From Terriglobia bacterium (GTDB lineage: Bacteria > Acidobacteriota > Terriglobia > 20CM-2-55-15): 33,030 nt of DNA. A program made the translations under genes and the position numbers. Within the stretch, counting starts at the first letter, position 1. The number at the start of each line of letters is the position of its first letter. The notes under the pieces were generated by a model. That model was not told the DNA's origin. It saw nothing but the letters and a program-made list of their open reading frames with translations, and searched no databases. The stretch covers positions 1 through 33,030 of the forward strand of contig DASXLG010000308.1 in the NCBI GenBank assembly GCA_036496425.1. The letters run 5' to 3'. Below, in pieces: positions 3,234-23,401 of the stretch.

Positions 3234-3243
3234 CGAGGCCACT

Positions 3244-5676: not shown

Positions 5677-5696
5677 GCTGTAGATTCGAAAAACCC

Positions 5697-6030: not shown

Positions 6031-6051
6031 ATCTAAACCTCGATATGCCGC

Positions 6052-6372: not shown

Positions 6373-6484
6373 CCTCCATTGCAGGCGAGGAGCGACAGTC
6401 CGGGATCTTAAGTGTCCATTCAACATATCTGGATTCAATAAGATAGCGTGCGATCGGACACGTCAGTTGTCCGACGGCCGCTCC

Positions 6485-7341: not shown

Positions 7342-7520
7342 GGAATCCGAGCGAACCGAAAATAAAGACGGCCTGAACCTCAGGATGGCTTTCAGCGAAA
7401 CCGCGCAGCGTGCGCTGCGTCAGCCAATGAGAACCGGTTCAAATCGGCCATAACCTCGACCGCCGAAGTTGTTTAGCCGGACAGGAGAAACAGGCTTACA
7501 CTTTTTCCTCGGGAGGGGTT

Positions 7521-8156: not shown

Positions 8157-8163
8157 CGAGCTC

Positions 8164-8985
8164 GTGGCCAGCGCGGCGATCGAGACGCTGCTGAGGCGCG
8201 ACCGCCTGGTCGTGGTCACGGCATTAGGCGCGGTCACCCTCCTCGCGTGGGCTTACATCATCCGTCTCGCCCTTCAAATGGACATGACGGGAATGGACAT
8301 GACAGGATTCCGGATGGCTGTCGCGGCAGCCGGAATGGTGATGAGACCGGCATTCGAGCCGTGGAGCGCGGCGGAATTCGCCTTCACGTTTGCGATGTGG
8401 GCCATCATGATGATCGGCATGATGACGCCGTCCGCCGCTCCCATGGTTCTGCTCTATGCGCGGGTCGCCCGTCAGGCCGCGATCGACGGCAAACCGTTCG
8501 CCCCCACCGCCTGGTTCTTCGGCGGCTATGTTCTCATCTGGACCGGGTTTTCACTCCTGGCGACTGTCGCGCAATGGCTCCTGGATCGCGCGGCGATGCT
8601 GACGCCGGCGATGTCGAGCGCGAACGCGCTGCTTGGCGCAGGCGTCCTCATTGCCTGCGGCGTTTATCAATGGTCTTCGCTTAAGGACCAATGCCTGAAG
8701 CACTGCCAGTCACCGATGCACTTTATTCAGCAACACGGCGGCTTCCGGTCCGCGCCCTTCGCTTCGCTTCAGCTCGGAATATCGCACGGCCTTTACTGCG
8801 TAGGGTGCTGCTGGGCGCTGATGGCACTGCTCTTCATCGGCGGCGTCATGAACGTCTTATGGGTGGCGTCGATCGCAGTCTTCGTTCTCGCCGAAAAGGT
8901 CGTCCGCACGCGGCATCTCATTCCGCGGCTCGCCGGCCTGCTCTTTATATCCGGAGGGATTTTCCTTCTTCTGCACCGGCCATGA
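8164..8985 (+). CDS. DUF2182 integral membrane protein
   Basis: The open frame extends upstream into the DUF1326 gene, but GTG 8164, just after that gene's stop, gives a sensible 273-residue protein (MASAAIETLLRRDR). It has about six membrane helices and DUF2182 hallmarks: a Met-rich MWAIMMIGMMTPSAAPM helix and a YCVGCCWALM helix. A Met/Asp-rich MDMTGMDMTG repeat lies between the first two helices. DUF2182 proteins are thought to bind metal in the membrane and usually pair with DUF1326, as here. The exact substrate is unknown. Confidence 0.88.
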   Translation: MASAAIETLLRRDRLVVVTALGAVTLLAWAYIIRLALQMDMTGMDMTGFRMAVAAAGMVMRPAFEPWSAAEFAFTFAMWAIMMIGMMTPSAAPMVLLYARVARQAAIDGKPFAPTAWFFGGYVLIWTGFSLLATVAQWLLDRAAMLTPAMSSANALLGAGVLIACGVYQWSSLKDQCLKHCQSPMHFIQQHGGFRSAPFASLQLGISHGLYCVGCCWALMALLFIGGVMNVLWVASIAVFVLAEKVVRTRHLIPRLAGLLFISGGIFLLLHRP

Positions 8986-9052
8986 AGCAGCGTGTAATTA
9001 TGTTTCCGGACGCCGCGATGGCATCATTGGTAGTGCAGCTGCGAACACGCCT

Positions 9053-9652
9053 ATGAACAACACGTTCAACCGCTTCTTCAGAATCGCTATTGCCATTGTG
9101 AGTTTTGCAGTTCCGCCGCTCATTTCCGCATCAGCGACTGTGCCTCCGGATACGGACAAGTGGGTAGGGACGTGGATCCTGAACATCCAGAAATCCCAAT
9201 ATGGCGATGAGAAGCCTCCTGTAGATCCGGCGCTTATCCGGCAGATCCTGAAAATTCGTGTCTCGAACGGGACTATGGATCTTTATTTTCGGACGGAGAT
9301 GGTCGACGGAACCGATCTCGCGGACGAAACGCATCTGGTGGACTTGACGGGCAAGCCGCACGTGACGGAAATTGACGGCTTGAAGCAGGTGACCGAAACC
9401 TTCCGGCAGCTCGATCGAAATACAATTGAAATCACCCTCAAGGCACGCCCGACGGAGCCTTCGGATGTGGCGGATGGCGAACTCACCATTAAGGTGAATC
9501 TCGCAATGTCCGCCGACGGGAATACAATCCACGAAGTAAAGGAATACCACTACAAAGAGTTCGCCGATACCGGCAAAGCCGCGGCCAGCGATGACCGCAA
9601 TCCGGCCGAAGGATCAATCCTGGTTTTCGACAGACAACAGCCGAATCGATAA
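9053..9652 (+). CDS. Exported hypothetical protein (acidobacterial GTW-type)
   Basis: This 199-residue protein has a signal peptide (RFFRIAIAIVSFAVPPLISA, cleavage near residue 28). A mature domain follows, opening with WVGTWILNIQKSQYG. This GTW-LN-xKS motif is common in small secreted acidobacterial beta-rich proteins of unknown function. The rest is predicted to be mainly beta strands, perhaps lipocalin-like. It stands alone: the gene before ends 67 nt upstream and the gene after is convergent. Function is unknown. Confidence 0.75.
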   Translation: MNNTFNRFFRIAIAIVSFAVPPLISASATVPPDTDKWVGTWILNIQKSQYGDEKPPVDPALIRQILKIRVSNGTMDLYFRTEMVDGTDLADETHLVDLTGKPHVTEIDGLKQVTETFRQLDRNTIEITLKARPTEPSDVADGELTIKVNLAMSADGNTIHEVKEYHYKEFADTGKAAASDDRNPAEGSILVFDRQQPNR

Positions 9653-9749
9653 AGAAGTCCCGAAATCCGCCCCCTGGAAATCTTATTGGCAAACAAGACA
9701 CTTCCGGCTCGACCCAATCTCGGGCGGGGAGTTCAAAACCGATGTTTGC

Positions 9750-10769
9750 CTACCTGGTTTCGCTTTCGCGGATCCCGCGGCTGCGTGGAGGGGGCGCGGC
9801 CCAATAGCTGTTTCTGGCGGCGACCGAGGCGTGTTTTCTTGGCGTGCTGAGCTTGACCTCCACTTTGTGCAGTCCGGGATGGGGATCGGAAGGCTGGAAG
9901 CTGAGCAGATAGCGGTTGTAAAGATCGTTATCGAACTGGTTCATGCGGAACTCGAAGTTCTTGCCCGATTTGAACAGCTCGTACTGGCCGCCGGTCATTG
10001 CCGCGATTGCTTTCGGGATGTTCTTTCTCATTCCTTGAGTGGCCATAAGGATCGGCGCCAGCAGGTCCGCGTTATTGGCCTTCCCGGGATTCTTGCCGCG
10101 GGCGTCGTCCAGCACAGCGGAAAGTGCGGGGGAAAACGCGAGCGCGTACATGACGATATCGCTGCCGGCCATCGCGGTCGCGACGTTGGCCAGCGGCACG
10201 GCGCTTCCGTGGTCGCGCGTCTCGCTGATCAGAAGCAGCATTCGGAGGCGGTCGTTGGGAGTTTTGTTGAGCATCGCCACGGAATAGTTGACCGCGTCCA
10301 GGATGGCGGCGCCGCCGTCGCCGGGCCTCAGTCTTCTCAAGTCGTTCCGGATGGCCTTCTCGTCGCGCGTGAAATCGCGAGTGAGAGCCACTTTGCTGTC
10401 GAATTCGACGATGGCCACGTCGGTGTTCCCCTGTTCGAGCACCGGACCGAGCATTGCGCCGAGCCCCTTCATCCGCTCGAATTCGGCAGGGGCTGCTCCG
10501 CCACATTGAAGCGCAATGACGACAGAGACGGGCTGGGCATCGAGGATTTCGTCGAGCTGGACGGCCTGCTCGACGCCGTCGTCTTCGATCGTGAAATCGC
10601 CGGCGCGCAGTCCGAAGATCAACTTGCCCTTTACATCTTTGACGAGGGTGGGCGCGAGCACCACTGTCGTCTGCGTCCGCAGCACCTGGTCCTGATCCTG
10701 GGCCGAGGCGTTGCCGATCAGCAAAAAGATGCACAACAGGAGAGCGAACCGCTTGGACAACCTCACCAT
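9750..10769 (-). CDS. VWA domain protein (VWFA-related, TIGR03436-like), exported
   Basis: The open frame reaches 10856, but the ATG at 10769 gives a clean signal peptide (MVRLSKRFALLLCIFLLIG, then NASAQ) and 339 residues. After the signal come strands with VVLAPTLVKDVKGKLIFGL and DFTIEDDGVEQ, typical of acidobacterial VWFA-related proteins. The VWA domain follows, and the C-terminus has the RYLLSFQP strand. The DxSxS metal site (MIDAS) of ordinary VWA domains is replaced by an ALQCGGA segment, so the metal site looks degenerate. These proteins are numerous in Acidobacteria and of unknown role, possibly in envelope protein interactions. It is divergent from xth. Confidence 0.85.
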   Translation of the reverse strand: MVRLSKRFALLLCIFLLIGNASAQDQDQVLRTQTTVVLAPTLVKDVKGKLIFGLRAGDFTIEDDGVEQAVQLDEILDAQPVSVVIALQCGGAAPAEFERMKGLGAMLGPVLEQGNTDVAIVEFDSKVALTRDFTRDEKAIRNDLRRLRPGDGGAAILDAVNYSVAMLNKTPNDRLRMLLLISETRDHGSAVPLANVATAMAGSDIVMYALAFSPALSAVLDDARGKNPGKANNADLLAPILMATQGMRKNIPKAIAAMTGGQYELFKSGKNFEFRMNQFDNDLYNRYLLSFQPSDPHPGLHKVEVKLSTPRKHASVAARNSYWAAPPPRSRGIRESETR

Positions 10770-10830
10770 CTCATACCATCGTACTTCGCGGTTCGGGCAA
10801 TATGGTAATGTCATTCGCCAAAGGCTGGAT

Positions 10831-11721
10831 ATGCGGATCGCGACCTGGAATGTCAACTCGCTGAAAGCGCGTCTCGAGAAGGTTCAATGGTGGCTCGAGC
10901 GCGCCCGGCCCGATGTTCTCCTGATGCAGGAGACGAAACTGGCCGATGCCGACGCGCCGGTCGAGGCGTTCCGGGATGCGGGATATGAGTTCGCACACCA
11001 CGGCGAAGGGCGATGGAACGGCGTCGCGATCGCGAGCCGCATTGGGATTAGCGGCATCGTCACCAATTTCGGAGAGCCGCTCCGGCCTGCACGCACTCCC
11101 GATGCCGCCGATGCCGCTGACGATGAGCCGCTCGCCGAAGCGCGGATGATTTCCGCAGAGTGCGGCGGCATCCGCTTGGTTTGCGTGTACGCGCCGAATG
11201 GCCGTCTAGTGGGATCGCCTTTTTATGAAGCCAAGCTGGTCTGGTTCCGCCGGTTGGCGCAATGGCTGGAGAAAACCATCCCGGCAGGCGCGCCGATCGT
11301 GCTTGGCGGCGATCTCAACGTCGCGCCGGCGGACATCGACGTGTGGGATCCGCGCGCCTGCCACGGCGGAACGCACGTCTCCGAACCCGAGCGCGATGCG
11401 TTTGCCGCGCTCTGCCGCGCGGGCCTGGTCGATGCGTACCGGCTGCGCCATCCCGAAGCCGATCGATACACGTGGTGGGATTACCGCGCGGGCAACTTCC
11501 ACAAGAATTTCGGGATGCGGATTGACCATCTGCTGGTCTCGACGGCATTGACGCCGCGCATCATTTCGTCCGAGATCGACAGGGAAGCCCGCAAGGGCAA
11601 GCCGCTGCCCTCGGATCACGCCCCGCTCGCGATCGACCTGGACCACCCTGGACATCCCTTCGATGCCGGCTGGGCGTCTGCGGATCAGCGTGTCGCGGGC
11701 CGGCGCGCGAAGTTGGGGTAG
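10831..11721 (+). CDS. xth: Exodeoxyribonuclease III
   Basis: This 296-residue protein uses ATG 10831 (MRIATWNVNSLKARL), the canonical family start; the upstream in-frame extension is rejected. EEP-family motifs are present: N7 in WNVNS, the metal-binding glutamate in LMQETKL, the GGDLNVAPADIDVWDP active-site loop and C-terminal SDHAPLAID. Exo III is a Mg-dependent AP endonuclease and 3'-5' exonuclease of base excision repair. A short Ala/Asp-rich insertion (DAADAADD) lies between the first strands, and the length is slightly above the usual ~255-270. It diverges from the VWA gene with 61 bp between starts. Confidence 0.95.
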   Translation: MRIATWNVNSLKARLEKVQWWLERARPDVLLMQETKLADADAPVEAFRDAGYEFAHHGEGRWNGVAIASRIGISGIVTNFGEPLRPARTPDAADAADDEPLAEARMISAECGGIRLVCVYAPNGRLVGSPFYEAKLVWFRRLAQWLEKTIPAGAPIVLGGDLNVAPADIDVWDPRACHGGTHVSEPERDAFAALCRAGLVDAYRLRHPEADRYTWWDYRAGNFHKNFGMRIDHLLVSTALTPRIISSEIDREARKGKPLPSDHAPLAIDLDHPGHPFDAGWASADQRVAGRRAKLG

Positions 11722-11768
11722 CTGCGGGCTTGCTTCTATAGGTAGGCGGGGGGATAGCAGGCCTGTAA

Positions 11769-11774
11769 TATAAT
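11769..11774 (+). promoter_or_regulatory. -10 box TATAAT upstream of the exported paralogue gene
   Basis: A perfect TATAAT lies 34 nt before the ATG at 11809, in the gap after xth. No good -35 element is found 16-18 bp upstream (that stretch is G-rich). A GGAGGG ribosome binding site at 11794-11799 is well placed between this box and the gene. Confidence 0.45.
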
Positions 11775-11808
11775 ACCCGCGAAGTAGAACCCTGGAGGGA
11801 AACGGAGA

Positions 11809-12789
11809 ATGCGAAGCGGGGCCAAAAGCTGGACCCTGATTGTAACAATCGCTGCCGCGACCGCGATCATTTTGGGGCTGGTCATGACACGAAACGTGAC
11901 CACGGCCCAAGTCGGCGGTCAGGCTGCTCCAGCGCGGATTGCCGGCAAGCCCGACTTCAGCGGAATCTGGGAGGCCAACAACACGGCGAACTGGGATCTG
12001 CAGACCCACGCGGCACGGCCAATGGTCGCGCAGCCGGGATTTTCGCCGGGCTCGGTTACTCTGGCGGCGCCGGTCCTTGGACTGGGTTCCATCGGGTGGG
12101 TTCCTCCCGGTCAGGGTGTCGTCGAGGGCGAAGAGATTCCATATCTGCCCTGGGCGGCGGCGCGAAAGAAAGAAAACCTCGAGCACTGGATGGATCGCGA
12201 TCCCGAGATCAAATGCTTCCAACCCGGCGTTCCGCGCGCCATGTACATGCCGTATCCGTTCCAGATCGTTCAGAGCGCCAGCAAGATCATGATGGTGTTC
12301 GAGTATGCCAACGCGCAGCGAACGATCCATCTGAACAAGATGGAAGACTATCCGAACGTCGCCTACATGGGATATTCGGTCGGCCACTGGGAAGGCGACA
12401 CCCTTGTGGTCGATGTGAAGGATTTCACCGATGCGACCTGGTTCGACAGATCGGGGAACTTCCACAGCGACGCGCTGCACGTTACCGAGCGATACAATAT
12501 GGCGGGCCGCGACGTCATCCGTTACGAAGCGACGATCGAGGATCCCCAGGTCTTCACGCGTACCTGGAAGATCAGCATGCCGCTCTACCGCCGGCTCGAC
12601 ACCAACGCGCAGCTCATGGATTTCCGGTGCGTCGAGATGGTTGAAGAAACCATGTACGGCCATCTGCGGAAAGAACAGCTCGTCAAGCAGTGGGTCGGCA
12701 ACACCATGACGGTAAACATCACGCGTACGATTCCGCCGGGTGAGAAGGTTCACGAACGTTATATTTCAGGCAATCCGCCGGCGAAGTAA
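11809..12789 (+). CDS. Exported hypothetical protein, paralogue A
   Basis: This 326-residue protein has an N-terminal signal or anchor helix (WTLIVTIAAATAIILGLV) and a PDFSGIWEANN motif at the start of the mature part. It shares a C-terminal pattern with the gene at 13450-14496: G-W-E-G-(D/N)-T-L-(V/I)-V, then a (Y/F)xxTER or TEKF element, then EDPxxxTRxW. Such proteins are common and often clustered in Acidobacteria; their function is unknown. GGAGGG precedes the ATG. A DUF6152 gene lies 57 nt downstream and the second paralogue follows, so the three may act together in the envelope. Confidence 0.8.
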   Translation: MRSGAKSWTLIVTIAAATAIILGLVMTRNVTTAQVGGQAAPARIAGKPDFSGIWEANNTANWDLQTHAARPMVAQPGFSPGSVTLAAPVLGLGSIGWVPPGQGVVEGEEIPYLPWAAARKKENLEHWMDRDPEIKCFQPGVPRAMYMPYPFQIVQSASKIMMVFEYANAQRTIHLNKMEDYPNVAYMGYSVGHWEGDTLVVDVKDFTDATWFDRSGNFHSDALHVTERYNMAGRDVIRYEATIEDPQVFTRTWKISMPLYRRLDTNAQLMDFRCVEMVEETMYGHLRKEQLVKQWVGNTMTVNITRTIPPGEKVHERYISGNPPAK

Positions 12790-12846
12790 GCGAAGCGCGA
12801 AACATCAAGCGACGCGCAGTTGTAATAGTTATCGGAGGTCGGTTTT

Positions 12847-13293
12847 ATGGGAATCAAGTTCACTGTTGGAGCCGCCGCTGCGGGTATTGCGATTCTGTTA
12901 TCGCAGGCGCCTGTCTGGGCGCACCACGCGTTTGCGGCAGAGTTCGACGCGAATAAACCCGTCGATTTCAAGAACGCGACCGTCACGCGGGTGCAGCTGA
13001 TCAATCCTCACAGCTGGATCTATGTCGATGTGAAGCAGCCCGACGGCACGTCCGAGAACTGGGCGATCGAAGCGGGCAGTCCGAACATCCTGTTACGGCG
13101 CGGCATCACCAAGGATACGCTGAAGGTTGGACAGAAGCTCAATGTCGTAGGGTACCAGTCGAAAGACGGATCGCACCGGGCCAATGGCCGCGATCTGACA
13201 TTGCCCGATGGAACGAAGCTGTTCCTGGGCGGCTCCGGTGACGGCGCTCCGTACGAAGTGCAACGTCCGGGAATCGATACGGAGAAGAAATAG
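12847..13293 (+). CDS. DUF6152 family exported protein
   Basis: This 148-residue protein has a signal peptide ending near VWAHHAFAAEF. The mature domain contains the family signature: HHAF, then TVTRVQLINPHSWIYVDV, WAIEAGSPNILLRRG, LNVVGYQSKDG and GRDLTLPDG. It is a small periplasmic beta-barrel-like domain of unknown function. GGAGG lies upstream of the ATG. It is embedded between two paralogous exported proteins, an arrangement seen repeatedly in Acidobacteria. Confidence 0.88.
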   Translation: MGIKFTVGAAAAGIAILLSQAPVWAHHAFAAEFDANKPVDFKNATVTRVQLINPHSWIYVDVKQPDGTSENWAIEAGSPNILLRRGITKDTLKVGQKLNVVGYQSKDGSHRANGRDLTLPDGTKLFLGGSGDGAPYEVQRPGIDTEKK

Positions 13294-13299
13294 ATGTTA

Positions 13300-13424
13300 G
13301 CAATTCCCCTCCTGCTACAGGAGGGGTGGCGCAAAGCGCCGGGGTGGTCGGTCCGGAATCAACATGAATCGTGAGCGACCACCCCGCCCTTCGGGCACCC
13401 CTCCTCCTCGAGGAGGGGAGTTGC
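13300..13424. repeat. REP/BIME-like double hairpin element
   Basis: Arms at 13300-13350 and 13376-13424 form a long imperfect inverted repeat (GCAATTCCCCTCC...GGTGGTCG against CGACCACC...GGAGTTGC) around a 25-nt loop. Each arm also contains its own hairpin, CCCCTCC...GGAGGGG, followed by a smaller GC hairpin. This architecture is typical of REP/BIME elements that are mobilised in trans by RAYT transposases. It lies between DUF6152 and the next gene, and could also act in transcription termination or mRNA stability. Confidence 0.8.
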
Positions 13425-13449
13425 TCTTTCAAATGACGAGAGGTTTTCG

Positions 13450-14496
13450 ATGCGGCAAAGATATTTAGCACCGCTGGGTGCACTGGCGCTAGTTGCAGTG
13501 TTTGTCTCGCTGGCGGCGGTGTCCATGCGCAGCCAGACGAAAGCTGCGCCCAAAGCTCCGGGTTTGCCCAAACCGGGGCCTGCTCCCAGAACCGCATGGG
13601 GCGAGCCGGATCTTCAAGGCACCTGGTTCGTGATGGAGAATGTGCCGCTTGAACGCTCCGCGGCCAATGCCAACAAAGAATTCCTGACGGACGCGGAAGT
13701 CGCTGCCGCCGACAAGCAGAAGGCGGACGATCCGGGCCGCAATGCCCGATCGGCAAACAGCGCGCAGGACGTCAACGGCGCTTACAATGCGGTGTTCAAT
13801 TCGGTATTGAGAACCAGTAAGCGCACTTCCATGATCATCGATCCGCCGGACGGAAAAATTCCGCCGCTGACAGCCGAAGCACAGCAGCGCCAAGGCCGCG
13901 GAGGGCGCGGCGGACTCGGCGCAGGCGGTGGAGGCCGCGGCAATGCCGCGTCTGTCAACGACAATCCGGAAACGGTAGCGCAATCGCCGCGTTGTCTCGG
14001 CGTTCAGATGCCATTCCTTGCGACGAACCCGTTATTTGCGCAGGGAACCGTCATGCAGATTGTCCAGGGCCCGAAGTCGATGGGTATATATATGGAGGAC
14101 GATCATGCCGGCGGCGGCAACCGCGTGATTTTCATGGACGGCCGTCCGCATGCGCCGTCGACTATCAAAAACGTCCTGGGCGATTCGAGAGGCAAGTGGG
14201 AAGGGAATACGCTGATCGTCGAGACCACGAACTTCGTTCAAGGGTATCGCGGGGCAAATCCCGACACATATAAAATGACCGAAAAATTCACCCGCATCGA
14301 TTCCAACAATCTGCGGCGTGATATCACCTTCGAGGATCCAAAGACCTGGACGCGTCCCTGGACCGTCAGAATCGAGATGGGTAAGACCGACGACAGCCGC
14401 CACATGATCTTCGACTCCGCGTGCCACGAAGGAAACTACGGCCTCACCGGGATTCTGGTGGGCGCGCGCAGGGAGGAACAGGCGGCAAAGAAATAA
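13450..14496 (+). CDS. Exported hypothetical protein, paralogue B
   Basis: This 348-residue protein has a signal peptide (LAPLGALALVAVFVSLAAV) and a Pro/Lys-rich linker. The mature domain starts at AWGEPDLQGTWF, the same G(T/I)W theme as paralogue A. A Gly/Arg-rich low-complexity loop (about 138-160: GRGGRGGLGAGGGGRG) interrupts the middle. The C-terminal GKWEGNTLIVETTNF and FEDPKTWTRPW segments align by eye with paralogue A at 11809-12789. Function is unknown. It is separated from the DUF6152 gene by the REP-like element. Confidence 0.8.
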   Translation: MRQRYLAPLGALALVAVFVSLAAVSMRSQTKAAPKAPGLPKPGPAPRTAWGEPDLQGTWFVMENVPLERSAANANKEFLTDAEVAAADKQKADDPGRNARSANSAQDVNGAYNAVFNSVLRTSKRTSMIIDPPDGKIPPLTAEAQQRQGRGGRGGLGAGGGGRGNAASVNDNPETVAQSPRCLGVQMPFLATNPLFAQGTVMQIVQGPKSMGIYMEDDHAGGGNRVIFMDGRPHAPSTIKNVLGDSRGKWEGNTLIVETTNFVQGYRGANPDTYKMTEKFTRIDSNNLRRDITFEDPKTWTRPWTVRIEMGKTDDSRHMIFDSACHEGNYGLTGILVGARREEQAAKK

Positions 14497-14639
14497 GCCG
14501 CGGAACACTCCGGATGCGGAGATTGGATCTGCGTTGTCCGGCGTGATCTGCGGCTTGTTACGGCAATTTTCGGGAAGCTTCACATTTTCTTTTCAACTCT
14601 GCTCCTACAGTAGGTGAAGAGCGGAATGCGGAGGTTTCG

Positions 14640-16052
14640 ATGCCTGATGTACGCTACGTCTGTCTATCGGATACCCATTTCGGCGCCGATAACAGCCTCC
14701 TGACCAATCTTCGAGCCGGCACGGCCACCGTCGAGCCGCTCCATGCGAGTCCGGTGCTGCAGGCACTTGCCGCGTGTCTTTCCGATCTCATTTCGAAGAA
14801 CCAGAATGCCGCACCGCCGACCCTGATCCTGAACGGCGACATCATGGAACTGGCCCTCACCAGCGACAACAACGCGGCCATGGCGTTCGAGCGCTTCATG
14901 GAATTGATCGTTCCGAATAACGGCAAGCGGCTCTTCGCGAATGAAATGATCTATGTCGCAGGCAACCACGACCATCATTTGTGGGAGACGGCGCGCGAAA
15001 CGCAATATGCCAATTTCATCGACAAGAATCCCGATCTTCGGGACTTGCCCATTCCGTGGCACACCACAAATATCTTCAGCGGCGATCCCGTTCCGGCGTT
15101 CTTTCTGAATACGCTCATCCAGCGTCACGATGCGATGAAGGACATCACGGTCCGCGCGGTCTATCCCAACTTCGGGTTGAATGACGGACACGGGAAGCTT
15201 GTCATTTTTTCGCATGGTCATTACATCGAATCGATTTACACATTGATGACAAACCTGCGTTCGATGATCTTTCCGGATCGCAAGCCGCCGGTCACGATCT
15301 GGGATCTCGAGGCGGAAAACTTCGCCTGGATCGACTTTTTCTGGTCGACGCTGGGGCGGTCCGGCGGCGTCGGCACGGATGTCGAGCTGATCTACAACAT
15401 GATGACGGACCCTCGAAAGTTGAAAATCCTCATCAACAACCTGGCTGCGGGAATCGTTCGCGAGTTCGGCAAGCAGGGCCTCGGCGGCAGAATCGACAGT
15501 TACTTCCTGGGACAGTTTCTCAACCTGACGCTGGGCCGCGTTGCCGCAACGGAACGGCACGATGGATCTGCGCTCCTTACTCCGGACGCAACTGCCGGAT
15601 TGAAGAACTACATTGAAGGTGTGCTGCTGACACAACTCGATCAGGAGCTGAATCACAATCGACCCACGGAGTGGTCGTTCGTGTTCGGTCACACCCACAA
15701 GCCATACGAGGATACCGGGGAATTCGCGGGTTATCCGGGGTTGACCGGTCTTTACAACAGCGGAGGGTGGGTGGTCGATACGCCTCAGGCCGAGCCGCTG
15801 CACGGCGCCAGCGCCGTTCTCGTCGATGAAAACCTCGACGTCGTTTCGTTGCGCTTTTACAACCAGCAGGCGGACGCGGCGAACTATGCCGTCCGCGTCA
15901 GCGAAGCCCAGCGCCCGAATGGAACGCACTCGGCGTTTTATGAGCGGCTGCAGGGCCTCATTAATCCTAACCGCGACCCCTGGAAAAGTTTTTCGGCTGT
16001 CGTTGCCGGGGAGATTCCGCTGCGGTTGAGAATTCAAGGGGAAGGTAATTGA
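14640..16052 (+). CDS. Calcineurin-like metallophosphoesterase
   Basis: This 470-residue protein contains the full metallophosphoesterase motif series: DTHFG near residue 11, NGDIM near 62, GNHDHH near 105, FSHGH near 190 and GHTHKP near 347. A two-metal (Mn/Fe) site is therefore predicted, hydrolysing a phosphomonoester or phosphodiester. A ~150-residue helical insertion between the last two His motifs is unusual for simple family members and may set specificity. No signal peptide is seen. It is the first of five closely spaced genes; its stop overlaps the ATG of the next (TGATG). The physiological substrate is unknown. Confidence 0.88.
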   Translation: MPDVRYVCLSDTHFGADNSLLTNLRAGTATVEPLHASPVLQALAACLSDLISKNQNAAPPTLILNGDIMELALTSDNNAAMAFERFMELIVPNNGKRLFANEMIYVAGNHDHHLWETARETQYANFIDKNPDLRDLPIPWHTTNIFSGDPVPAFFLNTLIQRHDAMKDITVRAVYPNFGLNDGHGKLVIFSHGHYIESIYTLMTNLRSMIFPDRKPPVTIWDLEAENFAWIDFFWSTLGRSGGVGTDVELIYNMMTDPRKLKILINNLAAGIVREFGKQGLGGRIDSYFLGQFLNLTLGRVAATERHDGSALLTPDATAGLKNYIEGVLLTQLDQELNHNRPTEWSFVFGHTHKPYEDTGEFAGYPGLTGLYNSGGWVVDTPQAEPLHGASAVLVDENLDVVSLRFYNQQADAANYAVRVSEAQRPNGTHSAFYERLQGLINPNRDPWKSFSAVVAGEIPLRLRIQGEGN

Positions 16053-17299
16053 TGGATGACCAGCGTTTCAGCGTTTACTTCGCATTGGACGGCCGGAATC
16101 TGGATGGCCTGATCGGCAGCGCCGGCATTTTGCGCTTCGATTGGCCGGAACGGAAAACCTACGTTCAGCATTTCTACGGCATCAGCTCCGCCCACAATCC
16201 GTCGCTGGCGCCCAATGGAAAGCTGGCGCTGCTGGGCAATTTCAGCCAGACGATCATGCTTCTCGACATCGAAAAACCGGACAAGATGCGCGAGGTCAGC
16301 CGGCAGTCGACGATGTATTTCGAAGAGATCGATTATCGTTTGCGCGCGAACACGCACCACCTCTGGTATCCCGACAGCGAGCATTTCATCGGAGCGATCG
16401 GCGATCATATTTATCGCTTTCATGTCGATAACTTGAAGAGCCCGGAAAACCTCGGTCCGCACCGCCTGGAGAACGCCCACGAGCTGCGCTGGGACTCGAA
16501 CCGCAGATATGTCCTGATCGGAGACCTGGGCCCCGAGAAACATGACGTGCGCCAGGTCGGCGTATTCGATCTGGAAGAGCCTGATCCGCAGAAGCGGGCG
16601 AGAGTCATCAAAGTTCAGAATAATGTCTGGCATTGCCGGGTTCATCCGACCAAGCCGGTGGGTTATGCGCTGACATATTCGCTTATCACCGACCACGACG
16701 ACTGGGTGAACTGGTCGCCCAGTTTTGTCCGCGAGTACATCTATGAAATCGATCTTCCGACCGCCACAATCACCCGCACGTGGAGCAGCGGCGCCGAATA
16801 TCCCGGTCACCTGAATTCAGACGTCGATATCTCCAATGACGACGTGTTGTATGTCGCGAGCGGCGGCAGCCATGGCGTGCTCGAAATTCCGCTGGACCGG
16901 TTCGCCGAAAGCCGGTTCCTTCCCTGCATTCCCAAATGGACCACCCGCGCGTTCTGCATTCACGACAAGCTGCACTCGCTGCTTGGAGCATTTTCGCGCA
17001 AGTCCTTTCCGAGCAATACGCATTACATTCTCCAGACCCTGCAGGTGACGGGCGGACGGGTTCTGGACGGCATCTATGCAACGCGTGTCTCGCCGGACGG
17101 CAAGAACCTCATCGTCGGCAATCGCGGCTACAACGTGATCGCGGTTTACGACCGCAAGACCTTCAAGAAGATTTACGAAACACTGCTTCCGTTCCGGCGC
17201 GACGTTTACGGCAACACAACGGACCACTACAAGTTCACCAACAGATTTATGGGGTATCACCTGGGCGTCCATCACAGCGAATTGATCACCCGGGATTGA
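16052..17299 (+). CDS. YVTN/WD-like beta-propeller protein
   Basis: This 415-residue protein starts at ATG 16052, overlapping the phosphoesterase stop, with GGGGAAGG upstream. Blade-like strands recur throughout: SLAPNGKLALLGNFSQTIML, ELRWDSNRRYVLIGD and ATRVSPDGKNLIVGNRGYNV. Several conserved-looking histidines (THHLW, AHELRW, VWHCRVHP, GYHLGVHHSE) could line a metal or ligand site. There is no signal peptide, so a cytosolic propeller is likely. Its coupling to the phosphoesterase suggests a shared complex or pathway, with the propeller as sensor or scaffold. Family not identified. Confidence 0.78.
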   Translation: MDDQRFSVYFALDGRNLDGLIGSAGILRFDWPERKTYVQHFYGISSAHNPSLAPNGKLALLGNFSQTIMLLDIEKPDKMREVSRQSTMYFEEIDYRLRANTHHLWYPDSEHFIGAIGDHIYRFHVDNLKSPENLGPHRLENAHELRWDSNRRYVLIGDLGPEKHDVRQVGVFDLEEPDPQKRARVIKVQNNVWHCRVHPTKPVGYALTYSLITDHDDWVNWSPSFVREYIYEIDLPTATITRTWSSGAEYPGHLNSDVDISNDDVLYVASGGSHGVLEIPLDRFAESRFLPCIPKWTTRAFCIHDKLHSLLGAFSRKSFPSNTHYILQTLQVTGGRVLDGIYATRVSPDGKNLIVGNRGYNVIAVYDRKTFKKIYETLLPFRRDVYGNTTDHYKFTNRFMGYHLGVHHSELITRD

Positions 17300-17310
17300 G
17301 AGGGGAGTGC

Positions 17311-19131
17311 ATGGTATCGAATGTTTCTGCCGGCCCGGCCGGCGCTGACCCGCGACTGACGACACTGACGTGCCTTCGGCAGGCCAATCCTGACGACCCG
17401 CTCGCGAAGGAGATTGCGGCCGATCTTTCGGCCGCTTCTTCCATCCTTGAAATGGTCAAGGATTACATGACGCTGCTGCACGACAGCGTGGATAACAATG
17501 CGCCGCCGCTTGGGAAAATGGCGAAGCTGTTCGAGTTGGGGAACACGTTCGATTCTCTCGATGGCCATCATTACGGCATCGCTCCCGGACTTCGTACCGG
17601 CGACCTGCATGGCGCGGCTGCGGAATTCGGGAATCTGATCGGGTTTCTGTGGGGCTCGCTGATTGTCGGCGCCTGTCCATGGGCAGGCAAGACTTACACA
17701 CCGATGATCGGCGGCGACCGCGCGAATGTCGTCGGCGGCACGGTTCCTTCCGACATCAAAGTCTTTCGAGGAATCAACCATTTCAATCGGATCGCGGGCG
17801 CGCCCGTGAATATCGCCGCCAACACGCTTCTGACGTTCATGTGGCATTTGCAGAAGGCCACGGATGCCGAGAAGGCGCAATATGGCTACGACCGCAAGGG
17901 CGGCCACTTCGCCGCGCATCGCGCGCCGTCCGTGTGGCCCGGCACACCGCGGGAGGTGTTTCGCCTGAACTACCGCTACCACGCGCTCGGTAATTACCCC
18001 CCATTGACCTATCTCATCGACGAAATGGTTCAGATCGCGGACGGACTGTATCTGGGACAGGTGCTTTTTGCTACGGAACATCTCCTCGAGCAGTTCGACC
18101 CGCAAACCGATCCCTCGCATTATCGTTATCAGAACTTCGGATACTTCCTCTTGTTCGAGCCCTACTGGAATGCCGAAGCCCAACGCCTTTTCCCGTTCCT
18201 CGAAATGCCGGACGCCGCGATTCCGCCGGACGGAATCAACGCCGCGGTGCCGTCGCAGGCGCCGCCGGACAAGTTTTCGACGTTAACCCTGGCCAGCCCG
18301 CAGGATGGCGACGTCGATCCAAACCTTCTCGATCAGGTTCGCACCGACATCCGGAATTCCGGCGGCATCATGCGGACGCTCAAGTCCTACTCGGATGCCT
18401 TGATGAAGGAACACGCAACGGGTTCGCCGTTCTTTGACAAACTGCATGCGCTGTTCAATGCCGGCCTCTCGCCGCAGTCCATGAATGGCTTCTATCGTGG
18501 TGCTCTCGTGTCCTGGCAAAGCGAGGGTCTGCTGGCGCCATTTCACGAAAACACGATCGACGTCGCCTGGCAGGCAACCCGCTTCTTCTCTCCGTGGACA
18601 GGGAAGACGTTCAATCCCATCGATGCGGCGCAACTGGCAATGTGGACGGACGGCGGAGAACCGATGGGTTCCGAGCCCGCATGGAACTGCTCGAATACGG
18701 TTGTCTTCCGGACGCTGAAGGAGAAGTTCACTCGCGAATGCATGAAAATCGCCGGCGTGCGAATGGAGGATGCGGCGCCGGAAGAACACCAGCAATACGG
18801 TTTCGACGCCCATACGTTCTTCTTTATCGGGCGGAGAGACAAGTCCAGTCTGCTGCCGGAGAATAAAGGTAAGAAGATTTACCAGTTCAACTATCGCTGG
18901 AAGGCGTTGAAGAACATTCCGCCGGATTGCTTCTGCGTCGATGAGATTGCGCAGATTGCGGACGGTCTCTATTTAGGCCAGCTGATTTATGCAACGGATT
19001 GGCTCAAACCCTGGAATCCCAACACGCCGATCGCCGATTACAAGTACAAGCTGTTCGGTTACTTTCTTCTGATGGACGAGGAATGGCATCAACGGCGGCT
19101 GAGAATCGGCTTCGACCTTGATAACACCTAG
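17311..19131 (+). CDS. Two-domain internally duplicated protein, unknown function
   Basis: ATG 17311, 11 nt after the propeller gene and preceded by GAGGGGAG, gives 606 residues; the longer frame from 16936 overlaps the propeller gene and is rejected. Two halves align. One has WAGKTYTP, NYRYHALGNYPP, VQIADGLYLGQVLFAT and FGYFLLFEPYWN. The other has WTGKTFNP, NYRWKALKNIPP, AQIADGLYLGQLIYAT and FGYFLLMDEEWH. Each half is about 280 residues. The WxGKxF and D-GLYLG pattern loosely recalls GXWXG/DUF4334 proteins, but that is speculative. No signal peptide or membrane helix is seen. I cannot name a function. Confidence 0.8.
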   Translation: MVSNVSAGPAGADPRLTTLTCLRQANPDDPLAKEIAADLSAASSILEMVKDYMTLLHDSVDNNAPPLGKMAKLFELGNTFDSLDGHHYGIAPGLRTGDLHGAAAEFGNLIGFLWGSLIVGACPWAGKTYTPMIGGDRANVVGGTVPSDIKVFRGINHFNRIAGAPVNIAANTLLTFMWHLQKATDAEKAQYGYDRKGGHFAAHRAPSVWPGTPREVFRLNYRYHALGNYPPLTYLIDEMVQIADGLYLGQVLFATEHLLEQFDPQTDPSHYRYQNFGYFLLFEPYWNAEAQRLFPFLEMPDAAIPPDGINAAVPSQAPPDKFSTLTLASPQDGDVDPNLLDQVRTDIRNSGGIMRTLKSYSDALMKEHATGSPFFDKLHALFNAGLSPQSMNGFYRGALVSWQSEGLLAPFHENTIDVAWQATRFFSPWTGKTFNPIDAAQLAMWTDGGEPMGSEPAWNCSNTVVFRTLKEKFTRECMKIAGVRMEDAAPEEHQQYGFDAHTFFFIGRRDKSSLLPENKGKKIYQFNYRWKALKNIPPDCFCVDEIAQIADGLYLGQLIYATDWLKPWNPNTPIADYKYKLFGYFLLMDEEWHQRRLRIGFDLDNT

Positions 19132-19142
19132 AGAGGGCGCGC

Positions 19143-20270
19143 ATGTCTCATCCCGAGCCCAGGAGGGCCGATGTCGTGGAGAAACGCATTGATCCGGTGG
19201 ATTTTAAAGACACTCTGGAAGACGCCGAACACCTGCTGAAATACGCCGCCGAGATCGGCATCGAGATTGATGGCGATACGTGCGACGCCGTTCTGGAGGC
19301 GCGATCGGCGTTCAGCACCGGATGGGACGAAACCACGGCCGCGCATCTTCTGTCAGCGCTGACGCGGCTTGTGTCGCGGCTCAAGCCGGTGACTGCCGAA
19401 AGCCTGAAGGCCAGTACAAACGGTCAATCCGAGGCGACCGGCCGCCGGTACTGGGTGATCGCCATCGTTCTCGCCGTGGTGATCATTCCGTATTCGCTGG
19501 CGAGCTATGTGACGTCGTCGATTTCGGACTCGATCCGCAAGGACATCGTCACGGCCAATGATCTCGCCGTAAAACTGACCACGCAACTTCCGACTCCGGT
19601 GCTGCCGGCGGGCGTGAACCGGTCGGATGTGGTTAGTGAGCTTCAGACCTTTGCGGCCACTATCCGGGGAATCGACAGCCGGTCGGCCCAGTTGAACGTG
19701 TTCATTCTGCGGAGGGTCAAAGACCCGTTTCAGGAATTGCGGCCGGGCTTCAACAAAGACGCCAATAAGGCCCGGGACATGGCCAAAGAGCTGAAGGAGA
19801 AGCTACAGCTTCCGGTTCCGTTGCCGGATGACCTTTCAATCGTGTCGGCCGAAAGGATTTCGGTTTACCAGGATGTTCGCTATTACGGCCAGAGTGTTGT
19901 GGACGACGTGTCGGTGTGGTACTCGGCATTCGCCACGTGCATCCTTCCCGTTCTCTATGCGCTGCTGGGCACCTGTGTGTATCTGGTCCGCACTTTCGAG
20001 CAGGAAATAAGCAGCCGGACTTTCAAGCCGTCGCACGCGGATTTCCACCGCTTTCTCATTGCCGGTGTCGCAGGCGCCGTTGTGGGGTTTTTCAGTAACT
20101 TCGCAATCAACACAGGAACTTCGGTTTCTCCTCTGGCGATCGCCTTTCTTGCCGGATACGCAGTAGATGTCTTTTTCTCCTTCCTGGACGGATTGATGCA
20201 GACGTTCACCAGGAACAAGAACGCCGCCGGGGCTGCATCGAGTGCGGCAACATCCGGTGGAAACCCGTAA
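19143..20270 (+). CDS. Four-helix membrane protein, unknown function
   Basis: This 375-residue protein lies 11 nt downstream of the duplicated protein gene. Residues 1-100 are soluble and helical (acidic, FKDTLEDAEHLLKYAAEIG). One membrane helix follows at about 103-123 (YWVIAIVLAVVIIPYSLASY), then a soluble helical segment of about 130 residues, then three more membrane helices (AFATCILPVLYALLGTCVYL; FLIAGVAGAVVGFFSNF; LAIAFLAGYAVDVFFSF) and an Ala/Ser-rich tail. I recognise no family. The layout, a periplasmic or cytoplasmic helical domain between membrane segments, fits a membrane anchor or small channel for the operon's soluble proteins. Confidence 0.78.
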   Translation: MSHPEPRRADVVEKRIDPVDFKDTLEDAEHLLKYAAEIGIEIDGDTCDAVLEARSAFSTGWDETTAAHLLSALTRLVSRLKPVTAESLKASTNGQSEATGRRYWVIAIVLAVVIIPYSLASYVTSSISDSIRKDIVTANDLAVKLTTQLPTPVLPAGVNRSDVVSELQTFAATIRGIDSRSAQLNVFILRRVKDPFQELRPGFNKDANKARDMAKELKEKLQLPVPLPDDLSIVSAERISVYQDVRYYGQSVVDDVSVWYSAFATCILPVLYALLGTCVYLVRTFEQEISSRTFKPSHADFHRFLIAGVAGAVVGFFSNFAINTGTSVSPLAIAFLAGYAVDVFFSFLDGLMQTFTRNKNAAGAASSAATSGGNP

Positions 20271-20279
20271 AATACCGGT

Positions 20280-22703
20280 TTGGATTTACTCGAAACCCCA
20301 TTACCGGAATGGCTGTTGCCGCTCATGCTGCTGCTTTCGTTCGGCAGCGGTGTTGCGGCTCTGATTTACGAGATCGTCTGGTTCCAGCTGCTGGAACTGG
20401 TTATCGGTTCTTCGGCTGTTTCTCTCGCCGTCATCCTCGCCACGTTCATGGGCGGAACCTGTCTGGGTAGCGTCGTTGCGCCGCGTGCGATTCCGGCCCG
20501 TTATCATCCGCTGACGGTTTACGCCGCGATCGAGATCGGCATCGCTCTTTCGGCAATGCTGGTGCTTTCAGTCATACCGGCCATCGGGAGTGTCTACCTT
20601 GCCTGGGCCGGATATGGCCTGCGCGGATTCCTGCTGCGTGGGATTGTCGCGGCGGCGTGCCTGGGGCTCCCAACGTTACTGATGGGCGCTACCTTGCCGG
20701 CTCTTGCACGTCAGGTCGAGGAGACGCGGGAGGGCGTTTCGTGGCTCGGCTTCTTCTACGGCGCGAACATCGCCGGCGCCGTTCTGGGATGCCTGCTGTC
20801 GGGCTTTTATCTGTTACGGAAATACGATGTGACGACCGCGACATTTGCCGCTGCGGCGGTGAATGCCGCGGTCGCGGCCGCAGGGTTGTCTGTGGGCGCG
20901 GTCTATGACCGCGCGCGATGTCTAAATGCGAGTTCGGTGACAAAACGCGCCCACAGCAACGGATCGGGAAATGGAATCGTCTACCTGACAATTGCGATCT
21001 CCGGTTTTTGCGCCATGGCGGCGGAAACCATCTGGACACGCGAGCTGGGATTGCTGTTCGGCGCATCGGTCTACACGCTGTCTATTATCGTTGCGGTTTT
21101 TCTCGCCGGTCTTGGGATCGGCAGCGCGATCGGGTCTTTGCTCGGCCGCAATCTCTCGCATCCTCGGGCGGCCTTGGGGTGGTGCCAGCTGCTGGCTGCG
21201 GTCTCGATTGCGTGGACAGCATACAGCCTCGCCGCTTCACTGCCATACTGGCCGATCGACCCGTCGATTTCTGCCGGCATCTGGTTCAATTTTCAACTCG
21301 ATCTGGACCGCGCATTATGGGCAGTCTTACCGCCCACGTTGCTTTGGGGCGCCAGTTTCCCGTTGGCCCTGGCTTCCATACGGTCCGCAAGGAAAGACGC
21401 CGGAAGGTTGATGGCCGGGGTTTATGCGGCCAATACCGCAGGCGCCATTGTTGGAGCGCTCGCCGCAGGTCTGATTCTCGTGGCGTGGCTGGGGTCGCAG
21501 CGCGCAGAGCAGTTGCTCATCGGAGTCGCGGCCATTGCAGGCTTTTTGATGCTGGCGGGCGGCGGAAGCCGGCGGAGAGCCGTGGCCGTTGGCACCGTCA
21601 CCGTCGTGCTGGCGGCGGCGATGGTGAACTGTGTTCCAGAGGTCTCGAAAGTTCTTATCGCGTACGGACGCTATGCGTCAACCTGGGTCGGCAAGGGAAA
21701 TATCGTCTATGCCCGCGAAGGGCTGAACTCATCGGTGGCGGTTTCGGATTTCCCGAATGGCGTTCGGACGTTTCATGTCGCAGGAAAGATTCAGGCGTCG
21801 AATGTTCCGCGCGACATGCGCTTGCAGAGGATGCTGGGACACATGACGTCGCTCACGCCGCCGCATGCCCGGTCTGTCCTCGTGATCGGCTGTGGGGCCG
21901 GGATCACGGCCGGCGCCGTGTCGATCGATCCAGCTGTGGAACATCTGGCGATCGTGGAAATCGAGCCGCTCGTGCCGCAGGTTGCAGCGGCGTACTTCCG
22001 CCAAAACAATTTCGATGTCATTCATAACCCGAAGGTTCAGGTGCAGATCGATGATGGACGCCATTATCTTCTGACATCGCAGGAAAAGTTCGATGCGATC
22101 ACAGCGGATCCGCTCGATCCCTGGGTGAAGGGCGCCGCAAACCTTTACACAAAAGAGTTTTTCGAGGCGGCCAGGCAGCGGCTGAACCCCGGCGGCGTCG
22201 TGACCATGTACATCCAGTTATTCGAGACCAATCTGGAGGCTGTGAAAAGCGCCGTGGCTACATTCTTCGAAGTCTTTCCGAACGGCACGATATGGGGTAA
22301 TACCTATGAGGGGCGTGGCCACGACATGATCCTGCTGGGACAGGTTGAGCCGGCGCACTTCGATCTCGATGTGATGGAACAGCGCCTCCGCCGTTCCGAA
22401 TATTCTCGAGTGGCTCAGTCGCTGGATGAGGTGGGAATGCATTCCGCAGACGACCTGTTCGCGACGTATGCCGGACGTGCCTCGGATCTCAAAGAATGGC
22501 TGGAAGGTGCGGCGATCAATCGTGACAGGAATCTGCGGATGCAATACCTGGCGGGCGCCGGCCTGGATCTTGATAACAGTGCTGCCATCTATGCCGGCAT
22601 GCTCCGATACAGGCGGTTTCCGGCGGACATGTTCATCGGAACTGCAGAGCGCGTGAATTCACTGAAGCTGGCCATGATGCAACCTTATGGAAATCAGGAT
22701 TGA
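20280..22703 (+). CDS. Membrane-fused spermidine synthase-like methyltransferase-fold protein
   Basis: This 807-residue protein starts at TTG 20280, 9 nt after the previous gene; no better start lies upstream. The first ~460 residues carry about 12 membrane helices in two related sets (GSGVAALIYEIVWFQLLELV; GFCAMAAETIWTRELGLLFG), typical of fused MFS/spermidine-synthase proteins. Residues ~530-700 form the spermidine-synthase Rossmann domain: VLVIGCGAGITAG (glycine-rich loop), IVEIEPLV (acidic end of strand 2), DDGRHYL and DAITADPLDPW. Soluble spermidine synthases transfer aminopropyl groups to putrescine. The membrane-fused versions are poorly characterised and may act on other substrates. 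It may be transcribed with the four genes before it. Confidence 0.88.
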   Translation: MDLLETPLPEWLLPLMLLLSFGSGVAALIYEIVWFQLLELVIGSSAVSLAVILATFMGGTCLGSVVAPRAIPARYHPLTVYAAIEIGIALSAMLVLSVIPAIGSVYLAWAGYGLRGFLLRGIVAAACLGLPTLLMGATLPALARQVEETREGVSWLGFFYGANIAGAVLGCLLSGFYLLRKYDVTTATFAAAAVNAAVAAAGLSVGAVYDRARCLNASSVTKRAHSNGSGNGIVYLTIAISGFCAMAAETIWTRELGLLFGASVYTLSIIVAVFLAGLGIGSAIGSLLGRNLSHPRAALGWCQLLAAVSIAWTAYSLAASLPYWPIDPSISAGIWFNFQLDLDRALWAVLPPTLLWGASFPLALASIRSARKDAGRLMAGVYAANTAGAIVGALAAGLILVAWLGSQRAEQLLIGVAAIAGFLMLAGGGSRRRAVAVGTVTVVLAAAMVNCVPEVSKVLIAYGRYASTWVGKGNIVYAREGLNSSVAVSDFPNGVRTFHVAGKIQASNVPRDMRLQRMLGHMTSLTPPHARSVLVIGCGAGITAGAVSIDPAVEHLAIVEIEPLVPQVAAAYFRQNNFDVIHNPKVQVQIDDGRHYLLTSQEKFDAITADPLDPWVKGAANLYTKEFFEAARQRLNPGGVVTMYIQLFETNLEAVKSAVATFFEVFPNGTIWGNTYEGRGHDMILLGQVEPAHFDLDVMEQRLRRSEYSRVAQSLDEVGMHSADDLFATYAGRASDLKEWLEGAAINRDRNLRMQYLAGAGLDLDNSAAIYAGMLRYRRFPADMFIGTAERVNSLKLAMMQPYGNQD

Positions 22704-22753
22704 CGACCTTCTGGCCGAAGCGAAAAGGCGTTTACAGTCGATCAGAACAAAGC

Positions 22754-23401
22754 TCATTTGTGAAGGTGCGCTTCGATAACGTTCACGAAATCTTCGATGC
22801 TCGGCTTGATATAAACGCGCTGGCCGTCGATTAAGAACGACGGCGTTTCATTCAGCTTCAGCTGCTCCGCCTGGGTTTCATCCCGGAGGATACGATCCTG
22901 CACGGCGGGTGAGTGGAGCTCCTGCATGAATTTGTTCATGTCCAACCCGATGCGGCTTGCCAGGGCCATCACAATAACCTCCGCGTTCCGGCTCTCGCCC
23001 CACTCTCGCTGATGCTCGAAGAGCGCATCATGCATTTCCCAATACTTGCCTTGATCGCCGGCGGCTTCCGCTGCCATTGCGCCAAGCATCGCATTCGGAT
23101 GAACGGCGATGAGCGGGAAGTGGTGAAATTCGAGACGAAGTTTGTCAGGGTAGCGGCTCAAAATTTCTTTGACGAAGGGATGGAAGCCACCGCAGCTCGG
23201 ACATTCGTAGTCACCGAACTCGACCAGAGTTACCTGTGCGTTTTCGGGGCCACGGAAGTGACCACCTTTGAGCTGAACCGGCTTCGCTGTTCCCGTGTCT
23301 TCCACAGGCTGGTCCGGGGTGCGGCTTAAATACACGGCGGCGCCTGCCGCGATTCCAACCGCAATAACGATGACGGCAAGAGGCTTCAGCAGCTTTTTCA
23401 T
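22754..23401 (-). CDS. DsbA-like thioredoxin-fold protein
   Basis: This 215-residue protein has an N-terminal membrane anchor or signal (LAVIVIAVGIAAGAAVYL). A DsbA/Thioredoxin_4 domain follows with active site CPSC (C67-C70) in the DYECPSCGGFHPF context, a helical insertion and the cis-proline loop TPSFLIDG. It probably oxidises or isomerises disulfides in periplasmic proteins, anchored on the outer face of the inner membrane. It is convergent with the fused spermidine-synthase gene, and the next minus-strand gene upstream is an exported protein 50 bp away. Confidence 0.9.
   Translation of the reverse strand: MKKLLKPLAVIVIAVGIAAGAAVYLSRTPDQPVEDTGTAKPVQLKGGHFRGPENAQVTLVEFGDYECPSCGGFHPFVKEILSRYPDKLRLEFHHFPLIAVHPNAMLGAMAAEAAGDQGKYWEMHDALFEHQREWGESRNAEVIVMALASRIGLDMNKFMQELHSPAVQDRILRDETQAEQLKLNETPSFLIDGQRVYIKPSIEDFVNVIEAHLHK

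Follow-up and report, generated by a model that had tools for sequence, protein, structure and literature searches.

A five-gene operon from a Terriglobia bacterium may hold the core of a rare module for handling a hydrophobic alcohol

The window analyzed here, a 33,030-nucleotide stretch of contig DASXLG010000308.1 from a Terriglobia bacterium (assembly GCA_036496425.1, Acidobacteriota), carries between positions 14640 and 22703 five closely packed genes, g1 to g5. They encode a metallophosphoesterase, a probable β-propeller, a tandem-duplicated protein, a membrane protein and a fused MFS/spermidine-synthase-like protein. Do such dissimilar products belong to one pathway and, if so, what does it act on? 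The initial annotation suggested a single envelope-linked pathway that makes or removes a small metabolite. Our results divide the set. The first three genes cluster with each other outside this genome and, together with a GMC flavoenzyme that the window genome encodes on a different contig, appear to share a pathway, whereas neither g4 nor g5 has a match in the corresponding loci of the relatives. We tentatively favor the reading that g1–g3 form the center of a rare module, probably spread by horizontal transfer, whose substrate would be a hydrophobic compound bearing a hydroxyl group, or a phosphorylated or phosphodiester form of it. Where individual genomes and loci have to be told apart, they are given our own G and L numbers.

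The distribution of g3 already sets the module apart. Among 199 genomes from the phylum, g3 was found only in its own genome, and the same was true among 11 genomes of its order, several of the 10 relatives there being incomplete. When the collection of species genomes was scanned with a profile made from the g3 halves, 11 loci emerged, four of them titled Acidobacteria or Blastocatellia and seven Deltaproteobacteria, Proteobacteria or simply bacterium; this is an undercount, since such a scan depends on a pair of short peptide patterns. Profile searches found g3 in 5 of the 162 genomes of the class to which one relative, G210, belongs and in 11 of 345 genomes drawn from the phylum of another, G213 (the WY5.bin12 bin). 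After overlap, the tally came to 5 genomes of the Blastocatellia class and 15 non-acidobacterial ones.

The five Blastocatellia genomes show a common arrangement. All of them have an ortholog of g2 before g3 and, on the same strand, a GMC flavoenzyme gene after the pair; in G268, this is spread over two contigs, one with g2 and the beginning of g3, the other with the rest of g3 and what comes after it. Three of the five encode, after g3, a membrane protein that contains about four hydrophobic regions, and in two an ortholog of g1 lies between this gene and the one for the GMC enzyme. The resulting orders are g2-g3-membrane-g1-GMC (L003 and G268), g2-g3-membrane-GMC (L005) and g2-g3-GMC (L002 and L004). 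The window genome also has the GMC ortholog, 74% identical, unlinked and on another contig. Thus, the module is split in this genome, and the place that the membrane and GMC genes take after g3 in the relatives is occupied by g4–g5. As to the flavoenzyme itself, the L003 protein matches the cholesterol oxidase family NF058674 with an E-value of 1.3e-63, and its best matches in the PDB are cholesterol oxidases (E about 1e-27).

Outside Acidobacteria, g3 was found near a different kind of enzyme. In 13 of the 15 non-acidobacterial genomes the g3 cluster includes a gene for a glycyl radical enzyme (GRE). An activase match is present in 12 of these 13 clusters (all except L057) and an SCP2-like match in 11 (all except L054 and L056). 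The 13 include L009, the source of the GRE-cluster queries, while L008 and L058 are one contig and were counted once, with G496. One of the two misses, G218 (L012), offers only about 1.5 kb from the start of g3 to the contig end, so that its downstream neighbors cannot be judged; the other, G508 (L063), has diverged g3 pieces and no cluster. The enzymes are recognizable by profile: the L009 GRE scores 552.9 bits against the PFL-like family (cut-off 24.3) and 69.2 bits against Gly_radical (cut-off 22.2), the activase reaches 268.1 bits against TIGR02494 (cut-off 174.35), and all four aligned GREs have the RVSGY loop and the GCVE motif. The two GREs that were scanned fell below every listed NCBIfam cut-off. 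The assignment of the small proteins to SCP2 (PF02036) is less firm, as three of five matched with E-values of 3e-4 to 8e-3, namely those of L010 (21.3 bits, identical to the printed cut-off), L007 (19.6) and L011 (17.0), and those of L006 and L009 gave no match. Other members of the clusters vary. DUF6765 (PF20551) occurs in six of the 13 (L006, L054, L055, L056, L057 and L011, the last being the source of the query), and metallophosphoesterase matches were found in L007, L009, L059, L060, L061 and L062, with one more noticed by eye in L011; L007, L059, L061 and L062 are close relatives. One genome, G523, links the GMC and GRE contexts: a relative of g1, a 735-residue GMC protein, a GRE spanning two open frames, an SCP2-like protein, an activase and g3 stand there in one row on one strand. 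We found no description of a GRE/SCP2/g3 cluster in the open-access literature, most subscription papers lying outside that scope, and the benzene- and limonene-activating systems described in passages of PMC13101534 and PMC12583861 do not match it. Separately, a GMC relative of 50–55% identity in L026 (G216:C114, 7812–14076) shares its strand with an old-yellow-enzyme-type reductase (PF00724) and a RoxA-like cytochrome (PF21419); the same genome has a GRE/g3 cluster elsewhere.

How did the same genes come to be in such distant genomes? The window proteins are 77–81% (g2), 71–77% (g3) and 74% (GMC) identical to their Blastocatellia counterparts. The control protein AroC is 59% identical in four of the five genomes, with a second copy in G211 at 56% and no match in G209. 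Identity so far above the control suggests horizontal spread of g2, g3 and the GMC gene; g1, at 48–51% identity, shows no such excess. Horizontal transfer would be the simplest account, differing evolutionary rates being another possibility. The contig itself fits its genus: AroC, encoded at its far end, is 82–85% identical in four of five same-genus genomes, with no match in the fifth.

The protein common to both contexts is g3 (17311–19131, plus strand, 606 residues). It matches no Pfam or NCBIfam family. The duplication that the initial annotation had noticed is borne out: the two parts align over 303 columns, of which 91 are identical (30%), with a BLASTP E-value of 4e-34. In the AlphaFold2 model, built from a 15-sequence alignment (pLDDT 80.0, pTM 0.52), each half consists of N-terminal helices followed by strands with helices between them. 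The top VIA match of the first half is 4mve_A (Z 10.3, rmsd 3.0, 141 of 148 residues aligned), and lower matches are mainly lipocalins, NanoLuc and avidins with Z-scores of about 4.5–6.1; the lipocalins among them reach about 4.8–6.1, a level that may reflect no more than a common arrangement. On the strength of this model we read g3 as two probable calycin-like barrels. We take 4mve to be Tcur_1030 of Thermomonospora curvata, a GXWXG/DUF4334 protein. Pfam shows no GXWXG/DUF4334 match in g3 at E ≤ 0.1 or, for the second half, at E ≤ 1, nor does 4mve turn up in a sequence search with the A3 profile. A search for DUF4334 in the window genome was negative, which is uninformative as control genomes were equally silent. 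In L007, L061 and L062, two neighboring genes stand in for g3, and the product of each begins, by eye, with a lipobox-like sequence. Thus, the two halves need not be fused and can occur as individual proteins.

In contrast to g3, the first gene of the operon is readily assigned. The 470-residue product of g1 (14640–16052, plus strand) is a calcineurin-like metallophosphoesterase, scoring 29.1 bits against PF00149 (gathering cut-off 21.5). Its DxH, GD, GNHD, H and GHTH residues, presumably those of the two-metal site, are invariant in all four aligned proteins (D11, H13, D67, N109, H110, D111, H192, H351 and H353), so the signature is complete. Its orthologs near g3 in G210 and G268 show the 48–51% identity given above, and the relative near g3 in G523 is 43–45% identical. 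Among 26 chosen genomes, g1 was found strongly only in its own genome and in these three, near g3 in each, with a weak single match in G215. Among the 162 Blastocatellia-class genomes, it was detected at E ≤ 1e-20 in G210, G268 and G286. In G286, where the g3 profile found nothing, the 50% identical g1 relative adjoins a GMC gene, and nearby are a second GMC gene fused to an α/β hydrolase, a FAD_binding_4 protein and a PhoD-like gene. The fused protein, 1136 residues long, is encoded at 14494–17904 of the respective locus (L079). As a further observation, PhoD-like proteins adjoin a familyless protein of 252–282 residues at three loci (L005, 1607–3755; L079, 17951–19900; L081, 3–1272). These small proteins resemble each other by eye, and the pair stands upstream of g2–g3 at two of the loci and near g1–GMC at the third.

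The assignment of g2 (16052–17299, plus strand, 415 residues) is weaker. It scores 20.2 bits against the seven-bladed lactonase propeller family PF10282, just under the cut-off of 21.7, which its L003 ortholog passes with 22.7. The AlphaFold model (pLDDT 29.5, six close orthologs in the alignment) is too poor for a structure search, and the suggestion that g2 is a sensor has no support. Across the six orthologs 17 histidines are invariant, which is only a hint given how close the orthologs are to each other. A lactonase-like hydrolase and a scaffold are both conceivable roles for g2.

What could these proteins do together? In the reading we favor, the double barrel of g3 would bind a greasy ligand, perhaps sterol-, terpenoid- or lipid-like, and transport or present it. 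With its two-metal center, g1 would remove a phosphate or split a phosphodiester; the phosphoesterases around the module are frequent but variable. The redox step would fall to the cholesterol-oxidase-like flavoenzyme, whose gene adjoins g1 or g3 in the relatives and lies on another contig here. In the non-acidobacterial relatives, a GRE of the Cys-x-Glu eliminase type with its activase and, usually, an SCP2-like protein would replace the flavoenzyme or, as in G523, join it. The order in which these steps would follow one another is our conjecture. The proposal that a hydrophobic alcohol is handled comes from the recurrence of the barrel protein with an enzyme acting at a hydroxyl-bearing carbon, be it GMC or GRE, and by this inference the small metabolite of the initial annotation becomes a hydrophobic alcohol-type ligand. 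One may go further and imagine an undescribed pathway for hydrophobic alcohols with interchangeable forms, an aerobic one using the O2-dependent GMC enzyme and an anaerobic one using the GRE eliminase and an SCP2-like carrier, with G523 as an intermediate. This extension, which presumes an anaerobic life of the relatives, we consider rather doubtful.

A number of observations weigh against the hydrophobic-alcohol reading. A sterol- or lipid-like substrate is a guess, given the versatility of both the GMC flavoenzymes and the metallophosphoesterases. The L003 flavoenzyme scores 215.4 bits against NF058674, far below the cut-off of 850, the window operon has no GMC gene, and g1 is absent from three of the five Blastocatellia genomes with g3. 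The fold of g3 is not secure either. Foldseek returned no PDB match at E ≤ 0.001 (best E 0.11), Z 8 is attained by a single VIA match, and the structures ranked second to fifth are not lipocalins but chains of annelid hemoglobin complexes (Z 6.7–6.8) and a designed protein (6.4). Next, the g3 relatives of L007, L057, L061 and L062 have, by eye, lipobox-like N-termini; GREs are regarded as cytosolic enzymes, which speaks against a ligand being passed on directly in those lineages. The titled relatives are metagenome bins, and several are close species with 85–87% identity in a shared phosphoesterase, so the 13 GRE clusters do not represent 13 independent events. One of them, L010 (G216), was counted as a match despite a stop within its GRE match, an activase broken in two and a g3 match limited to the final part; the cluster looks damaged or misassembled. 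Finally, polyamine genes flank the module in four of the five Blastocatellia genomes with g3, which fits another reading, considered below.

Could phosphate be what matters? The genes might form a set for scavenging phosphate or phosphodiesters and for remodeling, in which several phosphoesterases encoded around the locus would free phosphate from an organic donor, and the barrel, flavoenzyme and membrane proteins would process the liberated alcohol only secondarily. Phosphoesterases are indeed at hand. The PhoD-like protein of L005 scores 27.4 bits (cut-off 27), the one in G286 is 43% identical to it, and G268 has a fragment recognizable by eye. In L002, L003 and L005 the GMC gene adjoins the gene of another phosphoesterase-like protein, which has hydrophobic regions toward its C-terminus, although at 20.9 bits it remains just below the Pfam cut-off of 21.5, and further metallophosphoesterases occur in GRE clusters L007, L009, L059, L061 and L062. 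However, g1 is the gene that is missing where three of the five Blastocatellia genomes keep g2, g3 and GMC, and the constant neighbors are redox or radical enzymes. We regard scavenging as a possible explanation, though not a strong one.

An alternative with a similarly modest chance of being right concerns the last two genes, and here the layout of the operon matters. All five open reading frames are open, consecutive and on the plus strand; the closely packed set described earlier is therefore real. The junctions, from g1/g2 to g4/g5, are a 1-base overlap and gaps of 11, 11 and 9 nt. The spacing is as tight as had been claimed, but of the two genes said to start within or right after the preceding stop only g2 does so: its best start is the ATG at 16052, within TGATG, overlapping the g1 TGA by one base (the TTG at 16049 chosen in the initial annotation is in the same frame). 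The g3 ATG at 17311 lies 11 nt past g2, the mechanical start of its reading frame being 16936, and g5 begins with TTG. There are 143 free bases 5′ of g1, and the gene following g5 is on the opposite strand. A consensus scan of 14400–22900 found no sigma-70-like site (shuffles gave a mean of 3.4); this says little either way, as a promoter for the whole operon was missed too.

The two genes themselves encode membrane proteins by hydropathy, many hydrophobic regions being found in g5, four in g4 and none in g1–g3. In g4 (19143–20270, plus strand, 375 residues) they fall at about 101–127, 256–285, 304–323 and 327–351, and no family above cut-off was found in Pfam and NCBIfam scans. The 807-residue g5 (20280–22703, plus strand) belongs to the fused MFS/spermidine synthase family NF037959 (127.4 bits, cut-off 40), and its Spermine_synth domain is recognized by Pfam at E 1.7e-23; hence the description of g5 as a spermidine-synthase-like fused protein stands. 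Spermidine synthase activity itself is unlikely, judging from motif and scores. In the alignment with PDB 1uir (E 2.5e-16), the GGGEG loop, which we take to represent the acidic-residue GGG(D/E)G loop of spermidine synthase, corresponds to GCGAG with Ala in place of the acidic residue, although both Asp residues of DLTDP are retained in DPLDP; against TIGR00417, g5 scores 87.4 bits (cut-off 249.55), and it is below the cut-off of every listed spermidine synthase equivalog.

Accordingly worded, the alternative is that the operon is lineage-specific and has no shared pathway: g1–g3, acquired horizontally, would have landed upstream of an unrelated resident g4–g5 pair. The lack of g4 and g5 matches in the relatives' loci favors it, as does the fact that g3 was not found in the 10 order relatives nor g1 in the five same-genus members among them. 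Relatives of g4 were detected in two other genomes of the 199 from the phylum (G103 and G049, one genus), away from g1–g3; they lie 4.2 and 5.3 kb from a fused MFS/spermidine synthase gene, which could be a trace of a g4–g5-type pair, though neither of these fused genes gave a tblastn match to g5 at E 1e-3. Against this alternative speak the 9–11 nt spacing of the junctions and the different membrane gene that occupies the slot after g3 in three of the five relatives, which suggests that a membrane partner may be required. That protein, together with some g3 relatives that appear lipoprotein-like by eye, is also what hints at an envelope link. It was considered as a possible relative of g4 and rejected, since hhalign with shallow profiles gave a probability of 0.1 and no homology was seen. 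The Blastocatellia membrane protein may instead be related to one near the G496 GRE cluster (probability 89, E 2e-6, again with shallow profiles). Both g4 and g5 look like local, lineage-specific additions: a membrane protein and, possibly, a membrane-embedded Rossmann-fold transferase. The claim made for g1–g3 is unchanged whether or not the last two genes belong to the pathway.

Polyamine metabolism, with g5 making or sensing a polyamine and the flavoenzyme or g2–g3 acting on a polyamine conjugate, seems unlikely to us. It draws on the Spermine_synth domain of g5 and on the surroundings of the module in Blastocatellia. In L003 and L004, an arginine decarboxylase gene (686.4 and 689.9 bits, cut-off 624.1) and a deoxyhypusine-synthase-like gene stand on one side and an agmatinase gene (215 and 206 bits, cut-off 174) on the other, so that polyamine genes bracket g2-g3-GMC at 4406–18001 and 4403–13716, respectively; in L002 and L005 a deoxyhypusine-synthase-like gene lies upstream. 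However, g5 lacks the loop acid and stays below the equivalog cut-offs, as described above, and the deoxyhypusine-synthase-like proteins that were scanned (L002, L003 and L005) are below their own. In G268, up to the contig end, g2 is preceded by the PhoD-like fragment and a 282-residue protein, both by eye, and by no polyamine gene; in L005 such a pair stands between the deoxyhypusine-synthase-like gene and g2. Among the genes named in the GRE clusters no polyamine gene was noticed, no dedicated search having been made there. Moreover, the four polyamine-flanked genomes are close to each other (GMC 89–93% identical), so the flanks may represent a single insertion site. We take the polyamine genes to be the place of insertion, although the presence of a spermidine-synthase-like g5 in the window makes a link to polyamines conceivable. 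An anti-phage or mobile-element role was set aside, since g1 scores only 24.2 bits against the anti-phage phosphoesterase family NF053862 (cut-off 420) and g3 has no match in phage or plasmid collections.

Two other regions of the window deserve mention. At 918–5404, upstream of a tRNA-Leu gene (5697–5782), four successive open reading frames on the plus strand encode proteins of 105, 644, 462 and 299 residues, the second of them with a P-loop-like GWTGDGKT motif by eye; this could be a mobile or defense-type island. At 7521–8985, two adjacent open reading frames resemble, by eye, what we take to be a DUF1326/DUF2182 pair.

Overall, the window sets a conserved core, g1–g3 plus an unlinked flavoenzyme, apart from the apparently local additions g4 and g5. 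Familyless g3 proteins emerge as frequent companions of GREs in one bacterial group and of cholesterol-oxidase-like flavoenzymes in soil Acidobacteria. This association offers a way toward the substrate of a GRE clade that is still an orphan, and it suggests that chemistry dependent on oxygen and chemistry sensitive to it may be swapped within one module. If the extension to interchangeable aerobic and anaerobic forms is true, there would be a GRE system built for a lipid-like substrate.

Several of these proteins have counterparts among known systems, from which they depart in some way. Cholesterol oxidases (NF058674; PDB 1b4v, 1coy and others) are nearest to the L003 flavoenzyme. Their HPLGG and VNPxxTI segments, presumably catalytic, are kept in the five GMC copies that extend to that point and either belong to the g3-linked type or come from the window genome; to our knowledge, no cholesterol oxidase comes with a cluster of the g1–g3 type. 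Tcur_1030 (4mve) is the best structural match to the modeled first half of g3, whereas g3 has two such regions and N-terminal helices in addition. The NF037959 family, to which we know of no assigned reaction, includes g5 by its cut-off, and the loop acid of spermidine synthase is missing in g5. As for the GREs, they share the Gly radical domain, the RVSGY and GCVE motifs and a nearby activase with eliminases such as PFL2, glycerol dehydratase and choline TMA-lyase (TIGR01774, PF02901); unlike those enzymes, the g3-linked GREs are accompanied by an SCP2-like protein, a g3-type protein and DUF6765 or metallophosphoesterases.

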